Shown here piece after piece: positions 9,067-39,068 of a stretch of DNA of 44,952 bases. The notes beneath the pieces were generated by a model, which saw nothing but the letters and a program-made list of their open reading frames with translations, searched no databases and was not told the DNA's origin. Where the stretch lies: contig JAFYER010000010.1 in the NCBI GenBank assembly GCA_017544165.1, positions 1 to 44,952 of the forward strand, written 5' to 3'. Positions within the stretch are counted from its first letter, which is position 1; every line of letters starts with the position of its first letter. Source of the DNA: Bacilli bacterium (GTDB taxonomy: Bacteria > Bacillota_I > Bacilli_A > RF39 > UBA660). The position numbers and the translations under genes were made by a program.

Positions 9067-11149
9067 TTTTTCCACCATCCAGTTCAAAATCGATTGTTCT
9101 TTCCTTTTTAGAAGCCCCAACTACTTTTACTTTTACTTTATTACCTAATGTAAATTTTCTATTGCTTTCACTCACTAAAGATAGTAATTCAGGAACATAA
9201 TTATAAAAACCATCTAATGAGGAAACATGAACCAATCCTTCGACTAAATTAGGTAATTTAACAAAAAAGCCAAAATTAGTTACACCCGAAATAATTCCTT
9301 CGTATACTTCACCAATATGTGATTCCATATACTCAGCCATTTTCATCTCTAAAACGTCTCTTTCAGCTTCGATGGCCGCTTGTTCCTTTTCGCTAGCCTT
9401 TTCACAATAGTTAGGAAGTAACTTTCCATAATAATCTATTGTATCACGATCTATTTTACATTCAAATAAATACCTATGTAATAATGTATGAACTACAAGG
9501 TCTGGAAATCTTCTAATTGGTGAAGTAAAATGCGTATACATTTTACTTGCAAGACCAAAGTGACCTATATTATTAGTACTATAAATGGCTTTTTTCATAC
9601 TTCTTAAAAGCATATCGCTCAAGATTTCAAAGTTCTTATTATCTTTTAAACCATTTAATAGTTCTTGCATCGTTTTAGGAGTAATATTATTTATATTAAC
9701 ACTAACGCTGCAGTTTAACATTTTTAATAAATTGACAAAATCGGATATTTTTTCACCATTGGGTTCCCCATGCACACGATATACAAAAGGAAGATCCATA
9801 TTGGTAATATGCTCTGCGACAGTTTCATTAGCGGCTATCATAAAGTCTTCGATTAGTTTTTCACCTTCTAGTTGCTCTCGTTTAACAACATCAATTGCTT
9901 TACCATCTTTGTCTTGAATTATTTTAGCTTCATCAAGGCCAAAATCTATATATCCTTTGTTTTCTTTATATCTTCTTAAAATATGAGCAAGTTCTTGCAT
10001 CAACTTAAGTGTATCGGCAAATTTTTCATAGCCAGATGGAATACCTTTATCATCCAATATAGAATTAACATTTTTATATGTCATTTTCTTCTTACTATTA
10101 ATAACGGACAAAAAAATATCATGATCTATTATTTTCCCTTCGGGATTGATTGTCATTTCACAGGAAACAGTTAATCTATCAACACCTTCGTTTAAAGAGC
10201 ATATTCCATTTGATAGTTCATGAGGAAGCATAGGAATAACAGTATCTGCTAGATAAGAAGAAGTACCTCTTTGATAAGCACTATCAAAAAGAAGAGTTCT
10301 TTCTGTTACATAATGGGATACATCGGCAATGTGGACACCCAAAATATAATTATCACCTTCTTTTTTGATACTTATGGCATCGTCAATATCTTTAGTATCA
10401 TCTCCATCAATCGTAAAAATCATTTCTTTTCTTAAATCTTTGCGATCTTTTAACTCACTTTCTTTAACCTTGTTTGGAATACTTCCTAGTTCATAATCAA
10501 TTGCTTCAGGAAAATCAATAATAATTCCATGTTCGCAAGCAACAGACATTATATCAACACCAGGATCATTTTTATGTCCCAATATCTTTACTACTTTACC
10601 TAAATAATAATTCGTCCTCAGTTCCTTTATTATTTTAACTAAAACCTTATGACCCTCGACACAATGAGCTAATGACTCCTCAGTTACTTCAACGCCTATA
10701 TCTTTCTTATTGTCGTCAAGTACAAAACATAGATTATTACGTTTCATAACGATTTCACCGACAAGCATAGATAAATCTCTTTTTAAAACGTTAACTATTA
10801 TACCATCTTCACCTTGAACATCAACTTCGACCATATCACCATCAATAGCATTGTTCAAATTTTCTTTTCTAACAAATATATCCTCACTATCTTTAATAGT
10901 AACAAAGCCGTTACCTCTTTTATTGATGTGGACTACACCAGAAAAAAGTGATGAACAATTATCCATCAAAACATATTTATCCTTTTTAGAACGATGTATT
11001 TTACCTTCAGTAACTAGCTCATTAACCTCTTTTTGAAGTTTTTGATATTCTTCGACCGTTGTAAGCCCAAGTAAATCATTTATTTCTATCATAGTCAAAG
11101 CTTTGTTTTCATTTTTTAATTTTTCTAATATTAATTCTTTCATGAACAT
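9050..11149 (-). CDS. rnr: Ribonuclease R
   Basis: A 699-residue 3'-to-5' exoribonuclease. It shows a winged-helix N-terminus (about 1-55), cold-shock domains (about 65-230), an RNB catalytic domain with the acidic cluster TIDGDDTKDIDDAIS (about 247-262) and an S1 domain at the C-terminus (about 625-695). Length is on the short side, without the long basic tail of E. coli RNase R. Two starts are possible two codons apart (11149 and 11143). The second forms an ATGA overlap with the stop of the upstream pilin-like gene. Confidence 0.96.
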   Translation of the reverse strand: MFMKELILEKLKNENKALTMIEINDLLGLTTVEEYQKLQKEVNELVTEGKIHRSKKDKYVLMDNCSSLFSGVVHINKRGNGFVTIKDSEDIFVRKENLNNAIDGDMVEVDVQGEDGIIVNVLKRDLSMLVGEIVMKRNNLCFVLDDNKKDIGVEVTEESLAHCVEGHKVLVKIIKELRTNYYLGKVVKILGHKNDPGVDIMSVACEHGIIIDFPEAIDYELGSIPNKVKESELKDRKDLRKEMIFTIDGDDTKDIDDAISIKKEGDNYILGVHIADVSHYVTERTLLFDSAYQRGTSSYLADTVIPMLPHELSNGICSLNEGVDRLTVSCEMTINPEGKIIDHDIFLSVINSKKKMTYKNVNSILDDKGIPSGYEKFADTLKLMQELAHILRRYKENKGYIDFGLDEAKIIQDKDGKAIDVVKREQLEGEKLIEDFMIAANETVAEHITNMDLPFVYRVHGEPNGEKISDFVNLLKMLNCSVSVNINNITPKTMQELLNGLKDNKNFEILSDMLLRSMKKAIYSTNNIGHFGLASKMYTHFTSPIRRFPDLVVHTLLHRYLFECKIDRDTIDYYGKLLPNYCEKASEKEQAAIEAERDVLEMKMAEYMESHIGEVYEGIISGVTNFGFFVKLPNLVEGLVHVSSLDGFYNYVPELLSLVSESNRKFTLGNKVKVKVVGASKKERTIDFELDGGKNGNKQ

Positions 11150-11652
11150 TTACCCCAATAATCATTTTTATGATATTTTTCTAAACCAGTTGATGCATCG
11201 AATGTATTATCTGATTTAAATGATCCGTTAAGAGATATTTTACAAGATGCATCAGTACATGTTCCAGCACACTTAAGTTCGATGGTTTTAACTCCATTTA
11301 TTTTTTTTATAATTAGTGTTGTCCCATTTGAGTTATTATTTATATTAAAGTTTTTTGCAGTAGAATATATTGGAATGTATTTTTTTGAAATATTCTCATC
11401 TAATAATCCTGCTTCAATAAGTTTAATTATTCTGACATCACAACCCGTGGTATAATTCGAACAAGAAAATGCACTCAATTCAGTATAGACATCGGCTGCT
11501 TTAAATACCTCCCACATTATATCTTTATATTCATTTTTTTGAGCTTTTTTCAATGAAAAATCAGCACTAAGCCCTGCCGAAACGCTTAATGCTAAAATAA
11601 TTGCTATAACAACTAACATCTCTATTAATGTAAACCCTTTATTATTATTCAT
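11140..11652 (-). CDS. Type IV pilin-like / competence pseudopilin (prepilin)
   Basis: 170 residues with a class-III signal: a short leader ending NNNKG, then FTLIEMLVVIAIILAL, where the peptidase would cut after Gly6 and Glu11 is the conserved Glu5 of the mature form. After the helix comes a C-terminal domain with six Cys, suggesting disulfides. It resembles ComGC/PulG-type pseudopilins, but no pilus ATPase, platform protein or peptidase is in the window. It lies first in the rnr operon. No Shine-Dalgarno is seen, and the -10 box ends 6 nt before the ATG. Confidence 0.75.
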   Translation of the reverse strand: MNNNKGFTLIEMLVVIAIILALSVSAGLSADFSLKKAQKNEYKDIMWEVFKAADVYTELSAFSCSNYTTGCDVRIIKLIEAGLLDENISKKYIPIYSTAKNFNINNNSNGTTLIIKKINGVKTIELKCAGTCTDASCKISLNGSFKSDNTFDASTGLEKYHKNDYWGKCS

Positions 11653-15936: not shown

Positions 15937-15965
15937 ATTATAATCTATTTTTTATTTTTTGACAA
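15937..15965 (-). promoter_or_regulatory. Promoter of the sigma-like-tilS-ftsH-secG operon
   Basis: Minus strand TTGTCA (15965-15960), a 17-bp spacer, then TATAAT (15942-15937). It overlaps the 3' end of prfB. Confidence 0.75.
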
Positions 15966-17008
15966 TATTCTTTAGATTATATTCAAGCATTTCTCTTATT
16001 TCTCCGTTTAATATTTTTTCAGGATTATTGCTTTCAAAATTTGTTCTGTGATCTTTTACTAATTTATATGGTTCTAAAATGTAACTTCTTATTTGGCTAC
16101 CAAAATTTATGCTATCACCTTTTTTAAATTCGTTAATCTCCCCTTCACGTTTTTCAAGTTCCATTGCATATAATTTGCTCTTTATAATATCAATAGCAAT
16201 TTCTTTATTGCGGAGCTGACTTCTTTCATTTTGAACACTAACAACTATTTTCGAAGGTAAATGGGTTATCCTAACAGCCGAATTACTTGTATTAACAGAT
16301 TGACCACCTGCCCCCGAAGAATGAAAAACATCGATTTTTAAATCCTTTTCATCAATTTCAATATCATCAACTTTACCAAACTCGGGAGTAACTGTTACCG
16401 AAGCAAAAGAAGTATGCCTTCTTTTATTAGAGTCAAATGGTGAAATTCTAACCAAACGATGAACACCACTTTCATTTTTTAAATAGCCAAAAGCATTTTC
16501 CCCCGATACTTTTATTAAAACTGATTTAAGTCCGGCTTCCTCGCCATCTTGTGAGGATATTACTTCGCATTTATAATCGTATTTATCACAATATTTTTCA
16601 TACATATCTAAAAGCATGCTAACCCAATCTTGAGCTTCGGTTCCACCAGCCCCAGAATGAATTTCCAGATAACAATTTAAATTATCATATTTACCATTTA
16701 AAAATGTAGATAATTCTAGTTCTTGAACTTGAATTAATAATTCGTTATACTCTTCCTCGGTAAATAAATCAAATAATTCAATCCCAGCATCAATACTTGC
16801 CTCTAAGTTTTCGAAAAGATTAATTTTCTTTTCAATACTTACTATTTGAGAGTTGATTTCACTTGCCTTTTTAATGTCATCATAAAAATTCGAAACAAGC
16901 GTTTCTTTTTTTAAATCATTTAGTTTTTCTTTTAAATTTGGTATGTCAAAGTGACCTCCCGATGTCTTCTATTTTTGTTTTTAAATTTACTAAATCTGTT
17001 TTTTCCAT
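15952..17008 (-). CDS. prfB: Peptide chain release factor 2, made by programmed +1 frameshift
   Basis: RF2 releases peptides at TGA and TAA. Frame 1 starts at ATG 17008 (AAGGAG upstream) and gives 20 codons ending CTT TGA (16951-16946). The +1 frame begins at GAC 16947 and runs to TAA at 15952, for 351 residues in all. Just before the shift is a Shine-Dalgarno-like GGGAGGT, 3 nt from CTT, as in known prfB sites. The tRNA-mimicry domain shows HSGAGGTEAQDWVSML, and the catalytic GGQ lies in SSGAGGQSVNTSNSAVRITH. It follows trmB by 9 nt. A reading that starts at 16617 would be only the C-terminal part. Confidence 0.97.
16944..16964 (-). promoter_or_regulatory. prfB frameshift site
   Basis: Minus strand: SD-like GGGAGGT, TCA, slippery CTT, in-frame TGA, then C. 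Low RF2 slows termination at the TGA and favours slipping to the +1 frame, which is known autoregulation of prfB. Confidence 0.93.
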
Positions 17009-30814: not shown

Positions 30815-31555
30815 TCAATCAAACAATCGATGTTGCATAGCATCTGGTTCATCCAAATACATTTTATAAAGTCCATAAATTTCGGTATCTTTATATTTAA
30901 CTTCTTTAAAATTATTATTAAAATCCAATATTTTTCCATTACGATAACTAATAAGTATGGGTGAGTGGGTTGCTATAATAAACTGACTCCCCTCTTTTAC
31001 TAATTCATCAATTAAACATAATAAAGATAGTTGTCTTTGGGGTGATAAGGCAGCTTCCGGTTCGTCAAGTATATATAAACCATGGTCAGTAAAGCGATTT
31101 TGAACAAGTTTAATAAATGACTCTCCATGGGAACACTCATGTAAATTTCCTCCATATGCAAAGTATAGCGTTCCAAAACCATCTTCCTCGACTAATCTTT
31201 GCAACTCAGATGAAAAATTATAGAAACTTTCTGCTCTTAAGAAAAATTTCATTTTTGGTTTGTTAAAAGTTTCGATTCTTAAATAATCAGATAAAACAGA
31301 GGTTGTATTTTTCGTTTCATATTGAAAATTACTTGTTCCACCTTCAGCTGGTAATCCCAAAGCAACAGCTATTGCCTCAATAAATGTGGATTTACCTATA
31401 CCATTTTCTCCAATAAAAAAAGTAACAGGTGATGAAAATTTTAATTCATTAAAGTTTTTAACAATCTCAATATTAAAAGGATATTTATCAAAAGAAGAAA
31501 TTTTATCTCTATCTAAAACTATTTTTTTAATCATTAAATTGTTATTTAAACTCAT
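30815..31555 (-). CDS. AAA ATPase (COG3910/AAA_21-like, SMC-type fold)
   Basis: 246 residues with Walker A GENGIGKST, an ABC/SMC-type signature region (GESFIKLVQ), Walker B LYILDEPEAALSPQRQ and switch ATHSPIL, the features of predicted ATPases related to RecF/OLD. No nuclease or DNA-binding domain is fused. Small proteins of this group occur in both housekeeping and defence contexts. It lies 7 nt after an unknown gene and 17 nt before another, in one operon. Confidence 0.85.
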   Translation of the reverse strand: MSLNNNLMIKKIVLDRDKISSFDKYPFNIEIVKNFNELKFSSPVTFFIGENGIGKSTFIEAIAVALGLPAEGGTSNFQYETKNTTSVLSDYLRIETFNKPKMKFFLRAESFYNFSSELQRLVEEDGFGTLYFAYGGNLHECSHGESFIKLVQNRFTDHGLYILDEPEAALSPQRQLSLLCLIDELVKEGSQFIIATHSPILISYRNGKILDFNNNFKEVKYKDTEIYGLYKMYLDEPDAMQHRLFD

Positions 31556-32698: not shown

Positions 32699-32729
32699 AA
32701 AAAAGTAATAATTAAATTACTACTTTTTT
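32699..32729 (-). terminator. Terminator of the TasA-like/sipW/DUF5305 operon
   Basis: A 14-bp stem (minus strand AAAAAAGTAGTAAT with ATTATTACTTTTTT, one wobble), 3-nt loop, ending in six T. It includes the stop codon. Confidence 0.85.
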
Positions 32730-33829
32730 GCTTTCTTACTTTCTGCTATATGATTTTTAATATCACTTACTTTTAAACAATATGTATAAAGTATTTTGGT
32801 GTTGCTTGGGATTATAAAGTACACTCCATCCTTGCTACTATTCTCAACCATTAATATTGGTTGTTGAAGTGTATCTCTTATTTCTAACATGTCACTAAAA
32901 GTATCAACCTTCAATTTTTGATACATAGACAAATTAAATTGGTTATTGATTTTTTGAATATATGAATGATAGTTATTTAATATTTTCTTTAATTCCTTAT
33001 GATAAATATCCTCAGCGGTCCTTGTTTTAACGATGTACCTTATTAATATTATAATAATAATAGTTGTAAAAGCTGACATCAAAATACCAAAGAATAAGAA
33101 CACTATAGTTTTAAAATTGTTATTACTACAAGCCATTATATTGTCTTCTGTTTCAATTAAGTCGTTGCTCATTTCAATATTCATCGTCTTAGTAGTAAGT
33201 GGTATTTCAATCGACATAACAGATTCATTGCTTTTATTGTCTAGATCCTCACAACTGCCTAAAATGTTAACATACATCCTAACAGTTAAAGTTGAATTTG
33301 TATTATCTAGATTATATGTGCTTAAGAAGCTCTTGATTAAATCATTATACTTATTGTAATTGATTCTAACCTTTTCATTAATATAAGCATCACTTTTCTT
33401 TTCACTGTATCTAACTATCTCGTTAATAATGGTTTCTTTATAATTATACAAAGAACTAGTACCATTTTTTTCTTTAACATTGATTTCAGATTCAATAAAA
33501 TACGAATATTTGAAATCTGCATTTTCGTCTTGCAATGATATCTTATAATTAAACGTTGTATCGATATAATCAATTAAACTAGCTATATAACTACGATTAG
33601 GCCCTAAGAATTTTTCTTTAAAGAAATCATTTTCCTTTAAATATACTTTATAATCGATATCACTTGTTTCATTGTATTTAATATAAACTTCTTTGTTTGT
33701 ATATGAATGAAGGAATAAAAAAGCTAAAGCAAGTATTGCATAAAAGACTACTAAACAAGCATATTCAATAATATGTTTTTTTCTTTTAGCTTGTTCAACA
33801 AGTATTTTATCAACATTGCTTTTTTTCAC
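32720..33829 (-). CDS. DUF5305-like two-helix membrane protein
   Basis: 369 residues: one membrane helix (about 22-41), an extracellular domain of about 190 residues with strand patterns (EVYIKYNETSDIDYKVYLKEN, YIASLIDYIDTTFNYKIS, NSTLTVRMYVNILGSCED), a second helix (about 240-264) and a cytosolic tail. This layout and the VYIKYNETSDIDYKVYL motif fit DUF5305 proteins, which in other Firmicutes and archaea sit next to SipW-type signal peptidases. Its exact role is unknown. It is the last gene of the surface operon. Confidence 0.65.
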   Translation of the reverse strand: MKKSNVDKILVEQAKRKKHIIEYACLVVFYAILALAFLFLHSYTNKEVYIKYNETSDIDYKVYLKENDFFKEKFLGPNRSYIASLIDYIDTTFNYKISLQDENADFKYSYFIESEINVKEKNGTSSLYNYKETIINEIVRYSEKKSDAYINEKVRINYNKYNDLIKSFLSTYNLDNTNSTLTVRMYVNILGSCEDLDNKSNESVMSIEIPLTTKTMNIEMSNDLIETEDNIMACSNNNFKTIVFLFFGILMSAFTTIIIIILIRYIVKTRTAEDIYHKELKKILNNYHSYIQKINNQFNLSMYQKLKVDTFSDMLEIRDTLQQPILMVENSSKDGVYFIIPSNTKILYTYCLKVSDIKNHIAESKKAKK

Positions 33830-33862
33830 ATTTCCACTCCTTTCTTCAGTATTCTATGTTTT

Positions 33863-35011
33863 TTAATTAAATAATCGTCTTAACCACAATGTAGGCCAAC
33901 CAATGTATTTAATTTTTAGTTTTACTAGTCCGTTAATATCGGCTTCGGTACGATATCCACTATCATAGCTTTTGTTTGCATCACCCTTAGTAAAATACCT
34001 TACTTCGCCATTAATATTTTTTATTTCTACCACCCTATGAATAGTACTCATATTTCCATAATAAAATACAATTACTTGACCTTTTTGAATTTTACTATTT
34101 TTATTATATTGCTCATATATAATCGCATCACCTACATCTATAGTACCTGTCATACTTTCAGAACCTATAACCATTATTCCATATTTGAATTGGCAAGATA
34201 TTAGCATAATCATTAGTGTAATAAACCCAAAGATGAAACAAGTCCATATAATACTTTTTTTCTTATCCTTATATGCAATAGCTAAATTACTTCTGGCATA
34301 TGTTTGTTCAAATATTAAATAAATAATAAATGGATATAGTATCCTAAGAAATGTCCTTAGGAATAAATACACATCTGGTTGATATGGAATTAAATAAATA
34401 TACAATATGGTTATAAATCTAAATAATATTATCGGTTTAGCGCCAAATCTTTTTGATATATAGTTAAATAGTAAGTTATTAGCCATTGAAGAAAACAGAA
34501 TAAAACCAATAGCAGTCAAAAAATCATCTAGCTTATTTAAGTTATAAATACCGGCATAAATATTATAATCTACTAATACCAATGATAAGTAAATTAGAAC
34601 TAACGATAAATCAAATTTATGACCCTTAATTTTTATAACCATATTTTGATTAATCAAAATAACCCTAATAACTTCTGAAGATATTATAATTATTATTGTT
34701 GGAATAATAATATTAAATATATTTCTGATAGTAAATAGATATTTTGATCTGACAAAACCGAAATGCAAGCCAAGTGCGTATAATACCCCTAAATATATAA
34801 GAGCAAAAATTAGCATCAACAATAGTACTTGTTTATCATAAATAGACTTAATACCTCTCTTCTTAATTAATTGCCTTATGATAAACATAAAAATCAACAA
34901 GAAGGTTGCTAAGAACCACCTTGTTTCTATATATGATGCAAAGAGAGTAAAGAATAGAACTACGATAAGAACAAACTCTAATATATAAAGTCTTAATTTG
35001 TCTTTCTTCAT
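33863..35011 (-). CDS. sipW: SipW-type (ER-like) signal peptidase with a large polytopic N-terminus
   Basis: 382 residues. The catalytic part is C-terminal: GSESMTGTIDVGD with Ser286, STIHRVVEI with His325 (His instead of Lys, as in the ER/archaeal/SipW class) and KGDAN with Asp344. About eight membrane helices (about 8-240) precede it, where B. subtilis SipW has only one plus a C-terminal one. It should cleave the special signal peptides of the two neighbouring SipW-type exported proteins (35046 and 35817). Confidence 0.88.
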   Translation of the reverse strand: MKKDKLRLYILEFVLIVVLFFTLFASYIETRWFLATFLLIFMFIIRQLIKKRGIKSIYDKQVLLLMLIFALIYLGVLYALGLHFGFVRSKYLFTIRNIFNIIIPTIIIIISSEVIRVILINQNMVIKIKGHKFDLSLVLIYLSLVLVDYNIYAGIYNLNKLDDFLTAIGFILFSSMANNLLFNYISKRFGAKPIILFRFITILYIYLIPYQPDVYLFLRTFLRILYPFIIYLIFEQTYARSNLAIAYKDKKKSIIWTCFIFGFITLMIMLISCQFKYGIMVIGSESMTGTIDVGDAIIYEQYNKNSKIQKGQVIVFYYGNMSTIHRVVEIKNINGEVRYFTKGDANKSYDSGYRTEADINGLVKLKIKYIGWPTLWLRRLFN

Positions 35012-35045
35012 TAATTCTTTACCTACTTTCCGTCATATAATTCTA

Positions 35046-35603
35046 TTAAGCTCCTGCAGCTGGTGTAGCATTAATTGAAACACCAATATTAGTAGTACTG
35101 TCGGTTTCTTGAATTGGTGTATTTGTTAATGTAACAATAACCTTAATTGTTGCCTTTTCGCCATGATTTAAGGTTTTTGTACCGCTTGCCCAACTTGAGT
35201 ATGTGCCAGATCCAGATTTAGCGCCATCTTTGTAAGATACACTAACGCTAAAGAAGCTAGATTTAGAATTAGTGATTGTTGGTAATGCCAATGTAGCATT
35301 AACATCAGATTCTTTATTTTGAATCTCAAATTCTAATTCAACAGGAGTATTAAGTACCATATCAGTTACTGTAAATGTTGCTTCTGTTGAGTCATCATTT
35401 GATGTAATAGCAGTAACTTTATTTGATTCACCATTAGTAGTACCAGAGTTAACTCCATCAAATACTACTTTTAAATCTTCGGTCTTTGAAGCACCGGTAC
35501 CAGTAATATTCAATGTTACTTGAGATACAACAGCATAACCTACACCCAAAACTAGAATTAAAACACCTATAACTAATAATAAAATATTCCTCTTATTTTT
35601 CAT
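35046..35603 (-). CDS. TasA/camelysin-like secreted protein with SipW-type signal
   Basis: 185 residues. The N-terminus has the SipW-dependent signal: basic start, hydrophobic core LLLVIGVLILVLGVGYAVVS and the downstream QVTLNITGTG. The mature part (about 155 residues) is a Ser/Thr-rich beta-sandwich without Cys, as in TasA and camelysin, which polymerise into matrix fibres in Bacillus. It is followed by the signal peptidase gene 34 nt downstream. Start with GGGAGGTG upstream. Fibre formation is inferred from the family, not visible. Confidence 0.8.
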   Translation of the reverse strand: MKNKRNILLLVIGVLILVLGVGYAVVSQVTLNITGTGASKTEDLKVVFDGVNSGTTNGESNKVTAITSNDDSTEATFTVTDMVLNTPVELEFEIQNKESDVNATLALPTITNSKSSFFSVSVSYKDGAKSGSGTYSSWASGTKTLNHGEKATIKVIVTLTNTPIQETDSTTNIGVSINATPAAGA

Positions 35604-35816
35604 AATTCACCTCCCTATCTTTTAATATTTTCGGGGTAACAATAAAACCAAACAGGCATATCATTCCCTCATGTCAAAAATTTTTTAAGTAGAACTACCA
35701 TATATTTACTCTACTCTAAAATTAATTATAACACACAATTCGACAAAATCCACCATTTTTTTGTAGAAAAAAAAGCAAAAAATTGCTAAAATAAATATAG
35801 ACTGGGAAAGGGTATA
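35604..35816. promoter_or_regulatory. Divergent regulatory region between the two SipW-substrate genes
   Basis: 213 bases. A consensus TATAAT on the minus strand (within 35725-35732) is a possible -10 for the TasA-like gene, leaving a leader of about 115 nt that contains a hairpin with arms AGTAGA/TCTACT. No convincing -35 or plus-strand promoter is seen. An AGCAA/TTGCT inverted repeat lies at 35774-35787. Confidence 0.35.
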
Positions 35817-38165
35817 ATGAAAAAAGATAGAATATTATTATTAATTATTATTTTTGCTTCATTAATTATGGGAATTGGCTATGCTACAGTTAATAGTGTT
35901 TCTCTATCTATAAGCGGTAATTCAGTGGTTGCTAACAATGGTAATTTTAGTATAATTAGCGTTACCCAAACTGATTTAAAAAATTTAACTGCTTCAGAAA
36001 CACATACTGATACAAGTGTTGAGTTAGCTTTATCTTTTAGCGTTAATAAAAACGATACTTCCTCAACCGATGAACACTCGGTAACATATCAAGTAGTAAT
36101 TTATAATGATTCGATTCAATCTTTTGCTATAGGTTCAGAAATATTTAGCCCACATATTACAACAGCCGCTTCGAACGGTGAATCACTAGAATATATATAT
36201 GAGCCAATTGGAATTACTTTAGGTGAAGAAATTAAAGCAAAACAAACAAAACAATTCTCTATAAAAGTTACCCTGGTTCCTTCGGGTGGTGTCGCAAACT
36301 ATTCAGCTGGTGTTAATACCACTGTTGAGGTTCAAGAGGTTAATTTAGGTATTTTTACTGCAACACTTACCGGAAGTACAAGCGGCGATTTAACCGGTTC
36401 AAATACGGTAACACCTTTTACCGTGACCTTATTAAATAGTCTTGATACAAGTAAAACATATAATTTCTCATTAAGTAATCCAAATTTCCAAATATGTGAT
36501 GCAAGTGGAAATGCACTTGCAAACCAAACAATCGCAGCCGAAACCGAAAATCAAACATTTACTTTCTACATAAAAAATTCGTCAGGCATGAATTTTCCAA
36601 GCAGTCCAATAAATATTAACGTCTTTTTAGTACCAACTGATAGTGATGCATTTAGTATCGGAGTAGTAACCATAGCCGTCAATGTTGATCAGACAATGGC
36701 TGATAACCAAGACCCTGTTATTAGTTCTTTAAATGTTACAAAAGGAAATACCACTAGAACTTTAGAAGTCACCTGGTCAGCCTCTGATAACATCGGTATT
36801 GATCATTATGATGTTTATCTATATAGATCTAATGGACAGGAGGCAGCTTCATCTACGGGTTTAACAACATCAAGTTATACTTTCAACAATGTAAATGATG
36901 GAAGTTATTATATAACTCTAATTGCTTATGACTCTAGAAATAGTGCAACAATGAGTACTGAATCTGTAGCAAGAACCTGGACATATAATGTAACTATTAA
37001 TTGTTCAAATTGTACGGCAAACCCAAATGGTGGTACAGTCGAGGCTGGTGGCACTTATCGAACAACGTTTTCAGGAAGCGGTAACAATTATGATCCACCT
37101 TCATCTATGGGCACAATATACATGTATAATAGTACCACAGGTGTTCGAAGTGAAACTACTTCCTATCACTATAATGATAGTCAAACAAATACTAATCAAC
37201 TTGTTATATCAAATGTAACTGGAGATATTGAAATTAACGCTGCAGGTGTAAATGGCGGTGGCGGTTGCCTAGTTAAAGGGACAAAAATACTACTTGCAAA
37301 TGGTAAAACCAAAAATGTCGAAGATATTAAATATGATGATTTATTGGCAGTATGGAATTATGATACAGGAAGCTTAACATATGTATATCCTCTTTGGATA
37401 GAAAAAGCCTATGAAACAGATACAATAACTAGAATTACTTTCGAAGATGGATCGACACTTGAAATAGTTTATAACCACTCCTTATATGACACTGACCAGA
37501 ATTTATTTGTTGATATGCTAAGTGATAATACATTCCATATAGGCAGTAACGTTGCTAAAATTAATTCTGATGGTACAATTACAAGTGTTAGAATAACAAA
37601 CATCGAAGAAATACCTAAAAAAACAACTTTCTATTTCATTGGATCGACAACTTACTACAACATTATTGCTAATGATTTCTTAACCACTGATCGTTATACA
37701 GCTATTTCTAATCTTTATGGTTTTATAGATAATGCAAAATGGCCGCCATCCAAATATGAACTACTTTCCGATAGTAATAATCTAGTAAGTTATGATTTAT
37801 TCAAGGATTTATTACCTCATTACTTATTCGTAGGATTTAGAGTTCAAGAAGCAGGAATTCTATTTAACAACATGGGAACTAATTTCGAAGAATTTGCCTC
37901 ATATATAGATGCATTTATAACTACTGATAAGTACTTGATTAAGCCAATTCAAAAAAATGGTTACAATTACTGGATGGTAACAACAAGCTTAGATAAAGTT
38001 CGTGATAACAACAAAACAAGCTTCTTGCAAAAAGAAGGATCAACATTTAGGTTACCTATTTCATCGAAAGTAAAAAAATGGTATTCAACAAGTGAAAACA
38101 AATATTACTTACCTGGTGAATATGTAGTTGTTAATCACGGAATGCATTTCGAAGCAATTTATTAA
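35817..38165 (+). CDS. Large secreted protein with SipW-type signal, Ig/FN3-like domains and a Hint domain
   Basis: 782 residues. A SipW-type signal (ending MGIGYATVNSVSLSISG) leads to a TasA-like strand domain (about 30-175), a beta-sandwich (about 175-295), an FN3-like domain (about 298-390, DNQDPVISSLNVTKGNTTRT) and a beta domain with a CSNC pair. After VNGGGG comes Cys484 (CLVKGTKILLANGKTKNVED), the start of a Hint module. Block B shows IVYNHSLYD (His kept, Thr of TxxH changed to Val). YFIGSTTYYNIIANDFLTTD forms the closing block, without the terminal His-Asn of inteins. About 140 unassigned residues follow. It is divergent from the SipW operon. Confidence 0.8.
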   Translation: MKKDRILLLIIIFASLIMGIGYATVNSVSLSISGNSVVANNGNFSIISVTQTDLKNLTASETHTDTSVELALSFSVNKNDTSSTDEHSVTYQVVIYNDSIQSFAIGSEIFSPHITTAASNGESLEYIYEPIGITLGEEIKAKQTKQFSIKVTLVPSGGVANYSAGVNTTVEVQEVNLGIFTATLTGSTSGDLTGSNTVTPFTVTLLNSLDTSKTYNFSLSNPNFQICDASGNALANQTIAAETENQTFTFYIKNSSGMNFPSSPININVFLVPTDSDAFSIGVVTIAVNVDQTMADNQDPVISSLNVTKGNTTRTLEVTWSASDNIGIDHYDVYLYRSNGQEAASSTGLTTSSYTFNNVNDGSYYITLIAYDSRNSATMSTESVARTWTYNVTINCSNCTANPNGGTVEAGGTYRTTFSGSGNNYDPPSSMGTIYMYNSTTGVRSETTSYHYNDSQTNTNQLVISNVTGDIEINAAGVNGGGGCLVKGTKILLANGKTKNVEDIKYDDLLAVWNYDTGSLTYVYPLWIEKAYETDTITRITFEDGSTLEIVYNHSLYDTDQNLFVDMLSDNTFHIGSNVAKINSDGTITSVRITNIEEIPKKTTFYFIGSTTYYNIIANDFLTTDRYTAISNLYGFIDNAKWPPSKYELLSDSNNLVSYDLFKDLLPHYLFVGFRVQEAGILFNNMGTNFEEFASYIDAFITTDKYLIKPIQKNGYNYWMVTTSLDKVRDNNKTSFLQKEGSTFRLPISSKVKKWYSTSENKYYLPGEYVVVNHGMHFEAIY

Positions 38166-38167
38166 AC

Positions 38168-38197
38168 AAAAAAGCTAGCAGATTTTGCTAGTTTTTT
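38168..38197. terminator. Bidirectional terminator between the Hint protein and an ATPase gene
   Basis: Stem CTAGCA/TGCTAG (38175-38180 with 38186-38191), flanked by six A on the left and six T on the right, so it can serve both convergent genes. Confidence 0.85.
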
Positions 38198-39068
38198 AAT
38201 TAAATTCATCTCTATGTTCTTCGAAAAAGCTATTATATACTTTTACATTATCAAGTTCTGTCCATTTTTTAGGTTTAACAGGTTTGCTATCTAAGTCATA
38301 AATTTTTGCCCCGTCTAACGCTAGCAAAAATGGTGAATGAGTTGCTATAATAAACTGACAATTGTAAAATCTTGCTGATTCCTCGATAAACGTTTTTAGT
38401 TTTAATTGGTTTTCAGCAGATAAACTATTTTCTGGTTCATCAATGATATATAGTGAATTATCTTCAATTTCATTTTGCCAAAAATCTAGTGCTGTTTCCC
38501 CATTTGATTCTTGCATAATTGTATTATTTCTTAATCTTGTTCTAACATATTTCGAAGCTGTCATCCTGTTGGAATCAACTTTATTTCTTAAATCTTCATA
38601 TTGGCTTAAAGATGAATTATACTTCTCTGAAGGATTATATTTATACTCAAAATATTCGCTAATTAATTCAGTTTTTCTTCGATTAACACTTGAATTAATT
38701 GCTCTTAAATCAAGTAAGTAATCAAACACGTCATCACTTGAAATATACTTAATGCTTTTACACTCACCTTGATGAATTAATTCGCAATGTTGTTTGCAAC
38801 ACTGAACATATTGATCAAAAAAGATAGTTCTTTTATCAATATTTCTTTTTGAAGCATTAACAGTATCACTTATAATATTTAAAATTGTTGTTTTACCTGA
38901 ACCATTCCCACCATAAAAAATAGTAATTGGTTCAAAATCAATTTTCTCAAATTCTTTTTCAGGAAATATTCTAAGTGGATAAAAATTAGTATGAATATTC
39001 ATTTTATTCATAATCATACCATCTTCATAATCTTCATTTAGTAGTTTAAAATTTTTTAAGTAAATCAT
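38196..39068 (-). CDS. AAA ATPase (AAA_21/COG3910-like), second copy type
   Basis: 290 residues: Walker A GGNGSGKTT (about 54-62), a helical insert with two Cys pairs (QYVQCCKQHCELIHQGECK), a charged middle region, Walker B LYIIDEPENSLSAENQ and switch ATHSPFLLAL. It has the same general design as the ATPase at 30815 but is longer and clearly diverged. Expressed alone. The start has AAGGCGG 5 nt upstream. Physiological role unknown. Confidence 0.82.
   Translation of the reverse strand: MIYLKNFKLLNEDYEDGMIMNKMNIHTNFYPLRIFPEKEFEKIDFEPITIFYGGNGSGKTTILNIISDTVNASKRNIDKRTIFFDQYVQCCKQHCELIHQGECKSIKYISSDDVFDYLLDLRAINSSVNRRKTELISEYFEYKYNPSEKYNSSLSQYEDLRNKVDSNRMTASKYVRTRLRNNTIMQESNGETALDFWQNEIEDNSLYIIDEPENSLSAENQLKLKTFIEESARFYNCQFIIATHSPFLLALDGAKIYDLDSKPVKPKKWTELDNVKVYNSFFEEHRDEFN

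Follow-up and report, generated by a model that had tools for sequence, protein, structure and literature searches.

What does a Hint domain, a self-processing domain of the Hedgehog and intein type, do in a set of genes for an exported fibre? The question is raised by a locus at positions 32720-38165 of contig JAFYER010000010.1 (assembly GCA_017544165.1), a stretch of 44,952 nucleotides, hereafter the window, which is one of 13 contigs in the 1.05-Mb bin of a Bacilli bacterium (GTDB lineage Bacillota_I, Bacilli_A, RF39, UBA660). The initial annotation described four genes in this locus, for a fibre-like protein, a peptidase, a DUF5305 protein and a Hint protein, and proposed that they belong to one surface system. 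Profile matches (PF17231, TIGR02228, a fibre profile that reaches AbpX and a Hint profile) and a predicted Hint fold bear out the four assignments, and a survey of 48 clusters with a long sipW gene agrees with the proposed system, the genes being kept together in relatives. We consider it probable that these genes form an operon whose product is a donor-strand filament, dependent on SipW and of the TasA or archaeal bundling pilus kind, and that its large end subunit carries an autoprocessing domain resembling those of Hedgehog and BIL proteins.

Three tightly spaced genes on the minus strand make up the core of the locus. The first (35046-35603) encodes a TasA/AbpX-like fibre subunit of 185 amino acids with a SipW-type signal and lies directly 5' of sipW (33863-35011), the gene for a SipW-like, endoplasmic reticulum (ER)-type signal peptidase I of 382 amino acids (TIGR02228, E-value 7.6e-22, 77.9 bits, above the cut-off of 51.85; PF10502, 1.2e-5). 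About 250 membrane-spanning residues precede the peptidase part as an N-terminal extension, the residues S...HRV...TKGDAN form what we take to be the ER-type pattern, and the match to the Bacillus SipW equivalog NF046067 fails its cut-off (41.3 bits, with 190 required). The third gene (32720-33829) encodes a DUF5305 membrane protein of 369 amino acids that passes PF17231 (E-value 4.5e-13; 49.6 bits, cut-off 29). On the other side of a divergent intergenic region of 213 bases (35604-35816), in which promoter-like sites showed no excess over shuffled sequences, the plus strand carries the gene for the Hint protein (35817-38165; 782 amino acids), the proposed terminal subunit. This protein consists of a pilin-like domain (residues 38-175; 35928-36341), an immunoglobulin/fibronectin-like domain (residues 307-400; 36735-37016; PF23608 at 24.8 bits, slightly below the cut-off of 27), the Hint domain (residues 484-625; 37266-37691) and a C-terminal appendix (residues 626-782; 37692-38162), in which a helical part is followed by a beta part resembling Listeria-Bacteroides repeats. 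Its signal has the same style as that of the fibre subunit, G-x-G-Y-A-x-V-x-x-V-x-L-x-I-x-G, as had been noticed at the outset.

Relatives were collected by a contig scan with the 302-residue part of the Hint protein that begins at residue 481. The scan found 124 relatives, 80 of which were kept as loci L028-L107; most of L028-L082 come from bins of gut and rumen origin that bear the labels Bacilli, Bacillales, Erysipelotrichaceae, Tenericutes, Clostridia or Saccharibacteria. All open reading frames (ORFs) of at least 60 amino acids were labelled with profiles made from the same fetched loci, the labels for SipW, DUF5305 and Hint being backed by independent libraries as well and that for the fibre mainly by its match to AbpX. 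Since the loci were chosen by a Hint match, the presence of Hint is given, and the informative part is the presence of the other genes. In the window and the Hint-fetched loci, a DUF5305 gene follows the long sipW gene in all 48 clusters and the fibre gene directly precedes it in 46. A Hint gene adjoins 44 of the 48 clusters, in the same direction in 40 and divergently in four (the window, L028, L029 and L031); the back-to-back layout emphasised initially is thus real in the window and a minority form, one co-directional operon being the usual arrangement. The four clusters without an adjoining Hint gene are second clusters in L028 and L033, where the fourth protein is Hint-less, L060, which ends in the fourth gene, and L054, in which genes are broken.

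When each Hint relative is counted as one row (the window and L028-L082), a SipW-type peptidase is encoded in the fetched stretch in 50 of 56 cases, 45 of them with the long form and five with a short form of about 160-195 residues. The window's genome (1.05 Mb) encodes seven peptidases of this type, a density at which chance would place one in about 11% of equally long stretches, and none of 27 distant Hint ORFs (L083-L107) has one in its stretch, which indicates that sipW and Hint are associated more often than chance would allow. Flanking genes are not conserved, the largest family having three members both among 41 upstream neighbours and among 56 downstream neighbours, so that the unit has sharp borders. 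Inside them, the order fibre-sipW-DUF5305-Hint is rigid among relatives, and the set occurs in bins of Bacilli, Clostridia and Saccharibacteria. A second kind of Hint protein is encoded near a short SipW in L057, L060, L065, L068 and L070, in some cases with a TasA-like AYFSD signal; L057, L060 and L065 have a further exported protein between the two. Another Hint relative (L013:1492-3153, minus strand) has a type IV prepilin-looking N-terminus (GFTLIELLAVIVV) in place of the SipW signal.

The fibre subunit has a SipW-type signal in the family alignment and, in the 46 clusters mentioned above, the sipW gene directly beside it. A profile built from 104 of the 134 subunits listed matches the structures of AbpX, a subunit of archaeal bundling pili (9sj2, 8.6e-8; 9rhp, 1.9e-6), in line with the initial guess of a fibre-like protein. 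When fibre subunits and Hint proteins were compared by hhalign after removal of the signals, the first domain of the Hint protein matched the fibre subunit with a probability of 96 and an E-value of 4.4e-9, the control values being 4.7 for the second domain and 0.6 for the Hint part. Searched against the PDB, the N-terminal 300 residues of the Hint proteins gave nothing below an E-value of 0.5. The homology of the first domain to the fibre subunit suggests that the Hint protein is the terminal subunit of the filament.

For the Hint domain, the window protein alone gives weak matches (TIGR01445, 0.0021; PF05203, 0.0068), and at an E-value of 0.01 or below single members match PF01079 in 19, PF05203 in 37 and PF14890 in 12 of 66 cases; with the family profile, PDB entries of Hint structures are reached at 2.9e-11. 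A predicted model (pLDDT 95.1) is matched over its residues 1-147 by Foldseek and VIA-align to BIL2, inteins, BIL and hedgehog structures, with VIA-align Z scores of 16.8 for BIL2 (6y75; 2.0 Å over 141 residues), 15.5 for the BIL domain of Clostridium thermocellum (2lwy) and 15.1 for hedgehog (1at0). Cys484 at the N-terminus of the domain (37266-37268) and the block-B residue His554 (37476-37478) are present in 71 of 72 aligned relatives, the remaining row being a gap. Together with the predicted fold, these two residues place the domain in the Hint superfamily.

The C-terminus of the domain differs from that of inteins, which end in His-Asn. At the corresponding place the window protein has Thr624-Asp625 (Asp625 at 37689-37691); position 625 is Asp in 49 of the 72 rows and Asn in four, and the alignment shows no fixed Cys, Ser or Thr nucleophile after the domain. 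The His-Asn that is the hallmark of type A BIL domains is accordingly replaced by Thr-Asp, and a block-G-like strand, of the kind that type B domains lack, still aligns up to residue 625. The block-B Thr-x-x-His of the Hedgehog Hog domain is not kept, its His being present in 71 of 72 rows and its Thr in five, and no Hedgehog signalling domain was detected ahead of the window protein's Hint domain by Pfam up to an E-value of 1. An acidic residue, Glu or Asp, occupies position 529 (Glu in the window) in 61 of 72 rows; it lies 45 residues after Cys484, an offset equal to that of the Hedgehog residue Asp46, to which the title of 6tyy refers, the likeness being one of offset alone and not of a structural alignment. 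Residue 483, preceding Cys484, lies in a non-conserved linker rich in Gly, Ser, Thr and Asn (Gly in 15, Thr in 14 and Ser in 14 of 72 rows). The appendix that follows the domain is alignable in 58-60 of 60 rows, its beta part matching PF09479 in three of 66 members; structure searches with the Hint model returned matches to the Hint domain and assigned no fold to residues 626-782, which they hardly probed.

How far the Hint protein belongs to the system is answered by its distribution. The 302-residue Hint part was found in five of 117 genomes of the family, the window's own counted. Among 288 genomes of the order, 19 match the Hint profile, six of them weakly or partially, and 126 encode DUF5305, a family found in seven of 245 genomes in a phylum-wide draw, five of these belonging to the window's own family. 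With the six weaker Hint matches left out (E-value of 4.5e-23 or below), 11 of 13 Hint genomes of the order also encode DUF5305 (hypergeometric P 0.0026), G002 and G054 being the exceptions. A reverse sample of 40 DUF5305 regions, comprising 39 mostly high-scoring matches and a second copy in the window genome, contains a long sipW near DUF5305 in all 40 and a fibre gene in 38, the other two lying close to a contig end; a Hint gene is present in one (L174). Beside some of the clusters, large Hint-less proteins with a SipW signal were recognised by eye, usually with a pilin-like start followed by repeats, glycine-rich or other regions. The window genome itself has a second fibre-sipW-DUF5305 cluster (G000:C9:3006-8753, locus L138), with a Hint-less fourth protein of 896 amino acids. 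The 40 regions indicate that the common unit is fibre-sipW-DUF5305 and that its large partner can end in different ways, with Hint as one of them. The initial view of Hint as part of the system thus holds for the clusters of relatives and needs a qualification: the filament system is wider and has Hint as one of its optional cargoes, the fourth place being held elsewhere by other large SipW-signal proteins. DUF5305, a family of unknown function, thereby gains a consistent place among SipW-processed filaments. In one further locus (L185, in G526) an S26 peptidase gene adjoins DUF5305 on a contig whose proteins look, in our judgement, haloarchaeal; this pair may be older than the present group, or the contig may be a contaminant. 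Carriage of the Hint gene by phages or plasmids was considered and rejected, since tblastn of the 302-residue part against 50,697 phage records and 72,556 plasmid records found nothing.

Trees, which were quick ones rooted at the midpoint, point to more than one joining of Hint to the unit. In the tree of SipW and DUF5305 (88 rows), a clade of 42 rows (SH-aLRT 100) contains 41 Hint-type clusters, the sole exception, L166_6883, being cut off inside the fourth gene by a contig end. Outside this clade, beside the Hint-less cluster L177, lies the window group, in which the Hint gene is divergent; L082 is also separate. Parsimony gives five label changes, and a hand count that leaves out L166 and also L033_9853, which was scored as Hint solely because the Hint gene of another cluster lies near, gives about three joinings. 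In the Hint tree the window belongs to an 11-row set (support 96) with L028-L032, L033, L034, L035, L038 and L077; the SipW proteins of the last five sit in the large 42-row clade, unlike those of the window group. The histories of Hint and its SipW therefore differ in part, an argument for repeated recruitment. In the SipW and DUF5305 tree, eight Saccharibacteria rows are nested within Firmicutes rows, in two groups; the G+C content of the Saccharibacteria stretches is 39-50%, compared with 26-29% in five others measured. Three of the contigs (L050, L063 and L072) are 59-227 kb long, a point against mis-binning. The operon was likely transferred between Firmicutes and Saccharibacteria, and a whole pilus operon appears to be moving among animal-gut Bacilli, Clostridia and Saccharibacteria.

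How might such a locus work? Export of both the fibre subunit and Hint protein would use the same SipW-type signal, and the dedicated SipW, perhaps aided by the DUF5305 membrane protein, would remove both signals and leave free N-terminal donor strands. Fibre subunits could then polymerise by donor-strand exchange, and the Hint protein would join the filament as its tip or base through its fibre-like first domain. In the Hint domain, an N-S acyl shift at residue 483/Cys484 would produce a thioester. With Thr-Asp in place of the intein-type C-terminal His-Asn, splicing is not expected, and the thioester would be resolved by water, a thiol or an amine or hydroxyl group, yielding a shortened end subunit that is possibly bound covalently through its new C-terminus. 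A bolder version, which we put forward tentatively and regard as somewhat unlikely, makes the Hint domain a one-shot chemical harpoon: a main-chain thioester made on export would pass the end of a donor-strand pilus to a nucleophile of a partner, a Hedgehog-like covalent adhesion in gut Bacilli and Saccharibacteria. The partner may be mucus, plant fibre, another cell or the cell's own wall. In either version a Hedgehog/intein-type self-processing domain is tied to a pilus subunit, and if the Hint reaction does join the subunit to a partner, it would constitute a new route to covalent adhesion.

Several observations weigh against the filament with an autoprocessing end subunit. The fibre profile reaches TasA itself at only 0.40-0.42, and the predicted fibre model is of low confidence (pLDDT 73.5), without a Foldseek match at an E-value of 0.001 or below; structural proof of a TasA fold was dropped for this poor model. 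The block-B TxxH motif has almost lost its Thr (residue 551, five of 72 rows), and Asp is rare at residue 607, the likely block-F position (two of 72); the reaction could therefore be slow or different. Most DUF5305 genomes of the order have no Hint, and all close relatives are uncultured bins. The expectation, present from the outset, that Hint does not occur apart from sipW holds nearly always and fails in six of 56 loci (L030, L032, L043, L048, L064 and L078); in two of them, L043 and L048, the contig starts within the gene.

The same anatomy would also result if Hint merely matured its own protein, removing itself and the appendix by hydrolytic self-cutting after export, with no covalent attachment and with the filament otherwise as proposed. 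The non-conserved linker before Cys484 fits such simple release, and type B BIL domains are described as cleaving without splicing (PMC4031507); the retention of the appendix in nearly every row looks instead like that of a functional part, for example one recognising an acceptor. We hold simple maturation to be a real possibility, although not a probable one. A more radical view, that Hint frees a C-terminal toxin delivered by the filament, starts from the position of HINT domains directly ahead of toxins in polymorphic toxin proteins (PMC3482391) and from the best PDB sequence matches, 6y75 and 6tmm, which are labelled as ADP-ribosyltransferase chains, although the structure titles read BIL2 domain. 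The C-terminal part is, however, one alignable family in all close relatives rather than a changing toxin, no candidate immunity gene is conserved downstream (56 loci, largest family three), and the next gene in the window is convergent. Lacking the variable toxin domain and neighbouring immunity gene of such systems, this view was dropped as very improbable.

In bacteria without sortase, the Hint protein could replace that enzyme in anchoring the fibre to the wall, forming an ester or amide to it, and the Hint proteins inspected by eye showed no ending of the LPXTG type. Of the 288 order genomes, however, 270 encode sortase (PF04203), that of the window among them, and for this reason we abandoned Hint as a sortase substitute, an unlikely role; anchoring as such, apart from that substitution, may still occur. 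That the neighbours are unrelated and together by chance or common inheritance alone is scarcely credible. The window's Hint gene does lie on the opposite strand from the other three, but the gene order stays rigid in bins of Bacilli, Clostridia and Saccharibacteria although the flanks on both sides vary, which refutes the strong form of this explanation.

The favoured reading, a SipW-processed filament with a Hint-bearing end subunit, has clear counterparts among known systems. According to the published accounts, SipW of Bacillus subtilis cuts TasA and TapA, TasA polymerises by donor-strand exchange (PMC9674648), and Bacillus cereus has a sipW-calY operon (PMC10151520). As described there, the tapA-sipW-tasA and sipW-calY operons of B. 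subtilis and the B. cereus group place a dedicated SipW beside a TasA-type fibre subunit with a SipW signal, as here, and likewise include a second exported partner, TapA or CalY. Unlike tapA-sipW-tasA, the present system has a SipW with a long membrane extension and DUF5305 always following it, and its partner, which here carries a Hint domain, is multidomain; with TasA itself there is no significant similarity. Archaeal bundling pili (AbpA/AbpX), mentioned as TasA-like in PMC9674648, offer the best sequence match of the fibre profile. The system described here differs in being bacterial. In fold, in Cys1 and block-B His and in the lack of a fixed nucleophile after the C-terminus, the Hint domain resembles BIL domains, from which it differs in having mostly Thr-Asp for the C-terminal His-Asn and in being tied to a filament operon. 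For archaeal bundling pili, we know of no Hint partner.

With Hedgehog Hog the Hint domain shares the fold, the residues of the N-terminal chemistry, the absence of an intein-type His-Asn and an extra C-terminal region; the Hedgehog signalling domain is missing and the block-B Thr mostly absent. Hedgehog is described as relying on the N-S acyl shift alone (PMC7664689). Internal thioesters of surface proteins are reported to function as chemical harpoons (PMC4450167), and in thioester-domain adhesins such as SfbI and Cpa, as presented there, a thioester in a surface fibre reacts with a nucleophile, much as in the harpoon version of the Hint reaction. The adhesin thioesters involve the side chain of a Gln and belong to an unrelated domain, whereas here the main chain would be cut. 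The initial annotation had called the combination with Hint one not known as described, and likewise we found no description of it in the open-licence PMC literature, including searches for SipW with intein, SipW with DUF5305, DUF5305, and SipW, signal peptidase and Saccharibacteria together.

Elsewhere in the window, which yielded no RNA families, the locus is flanked by two related genes for ABC/AAA-type ATPases (30815-31555 and 38196-39068, both on the minus strand), with 38% identity over 97 amino acids. A solitary type IV prepilin-like gene (11140-11652, minus strand; GFTLIEM) has no other pilus genes noticed alongside. The gene for RF2 (15952-17008, minus strand) is split over two frames, a start of 20 amino acids ending in ..GRSL-stop and the remainder lying in the other frame, which we take to be the usual programmed frameshift of prfB.

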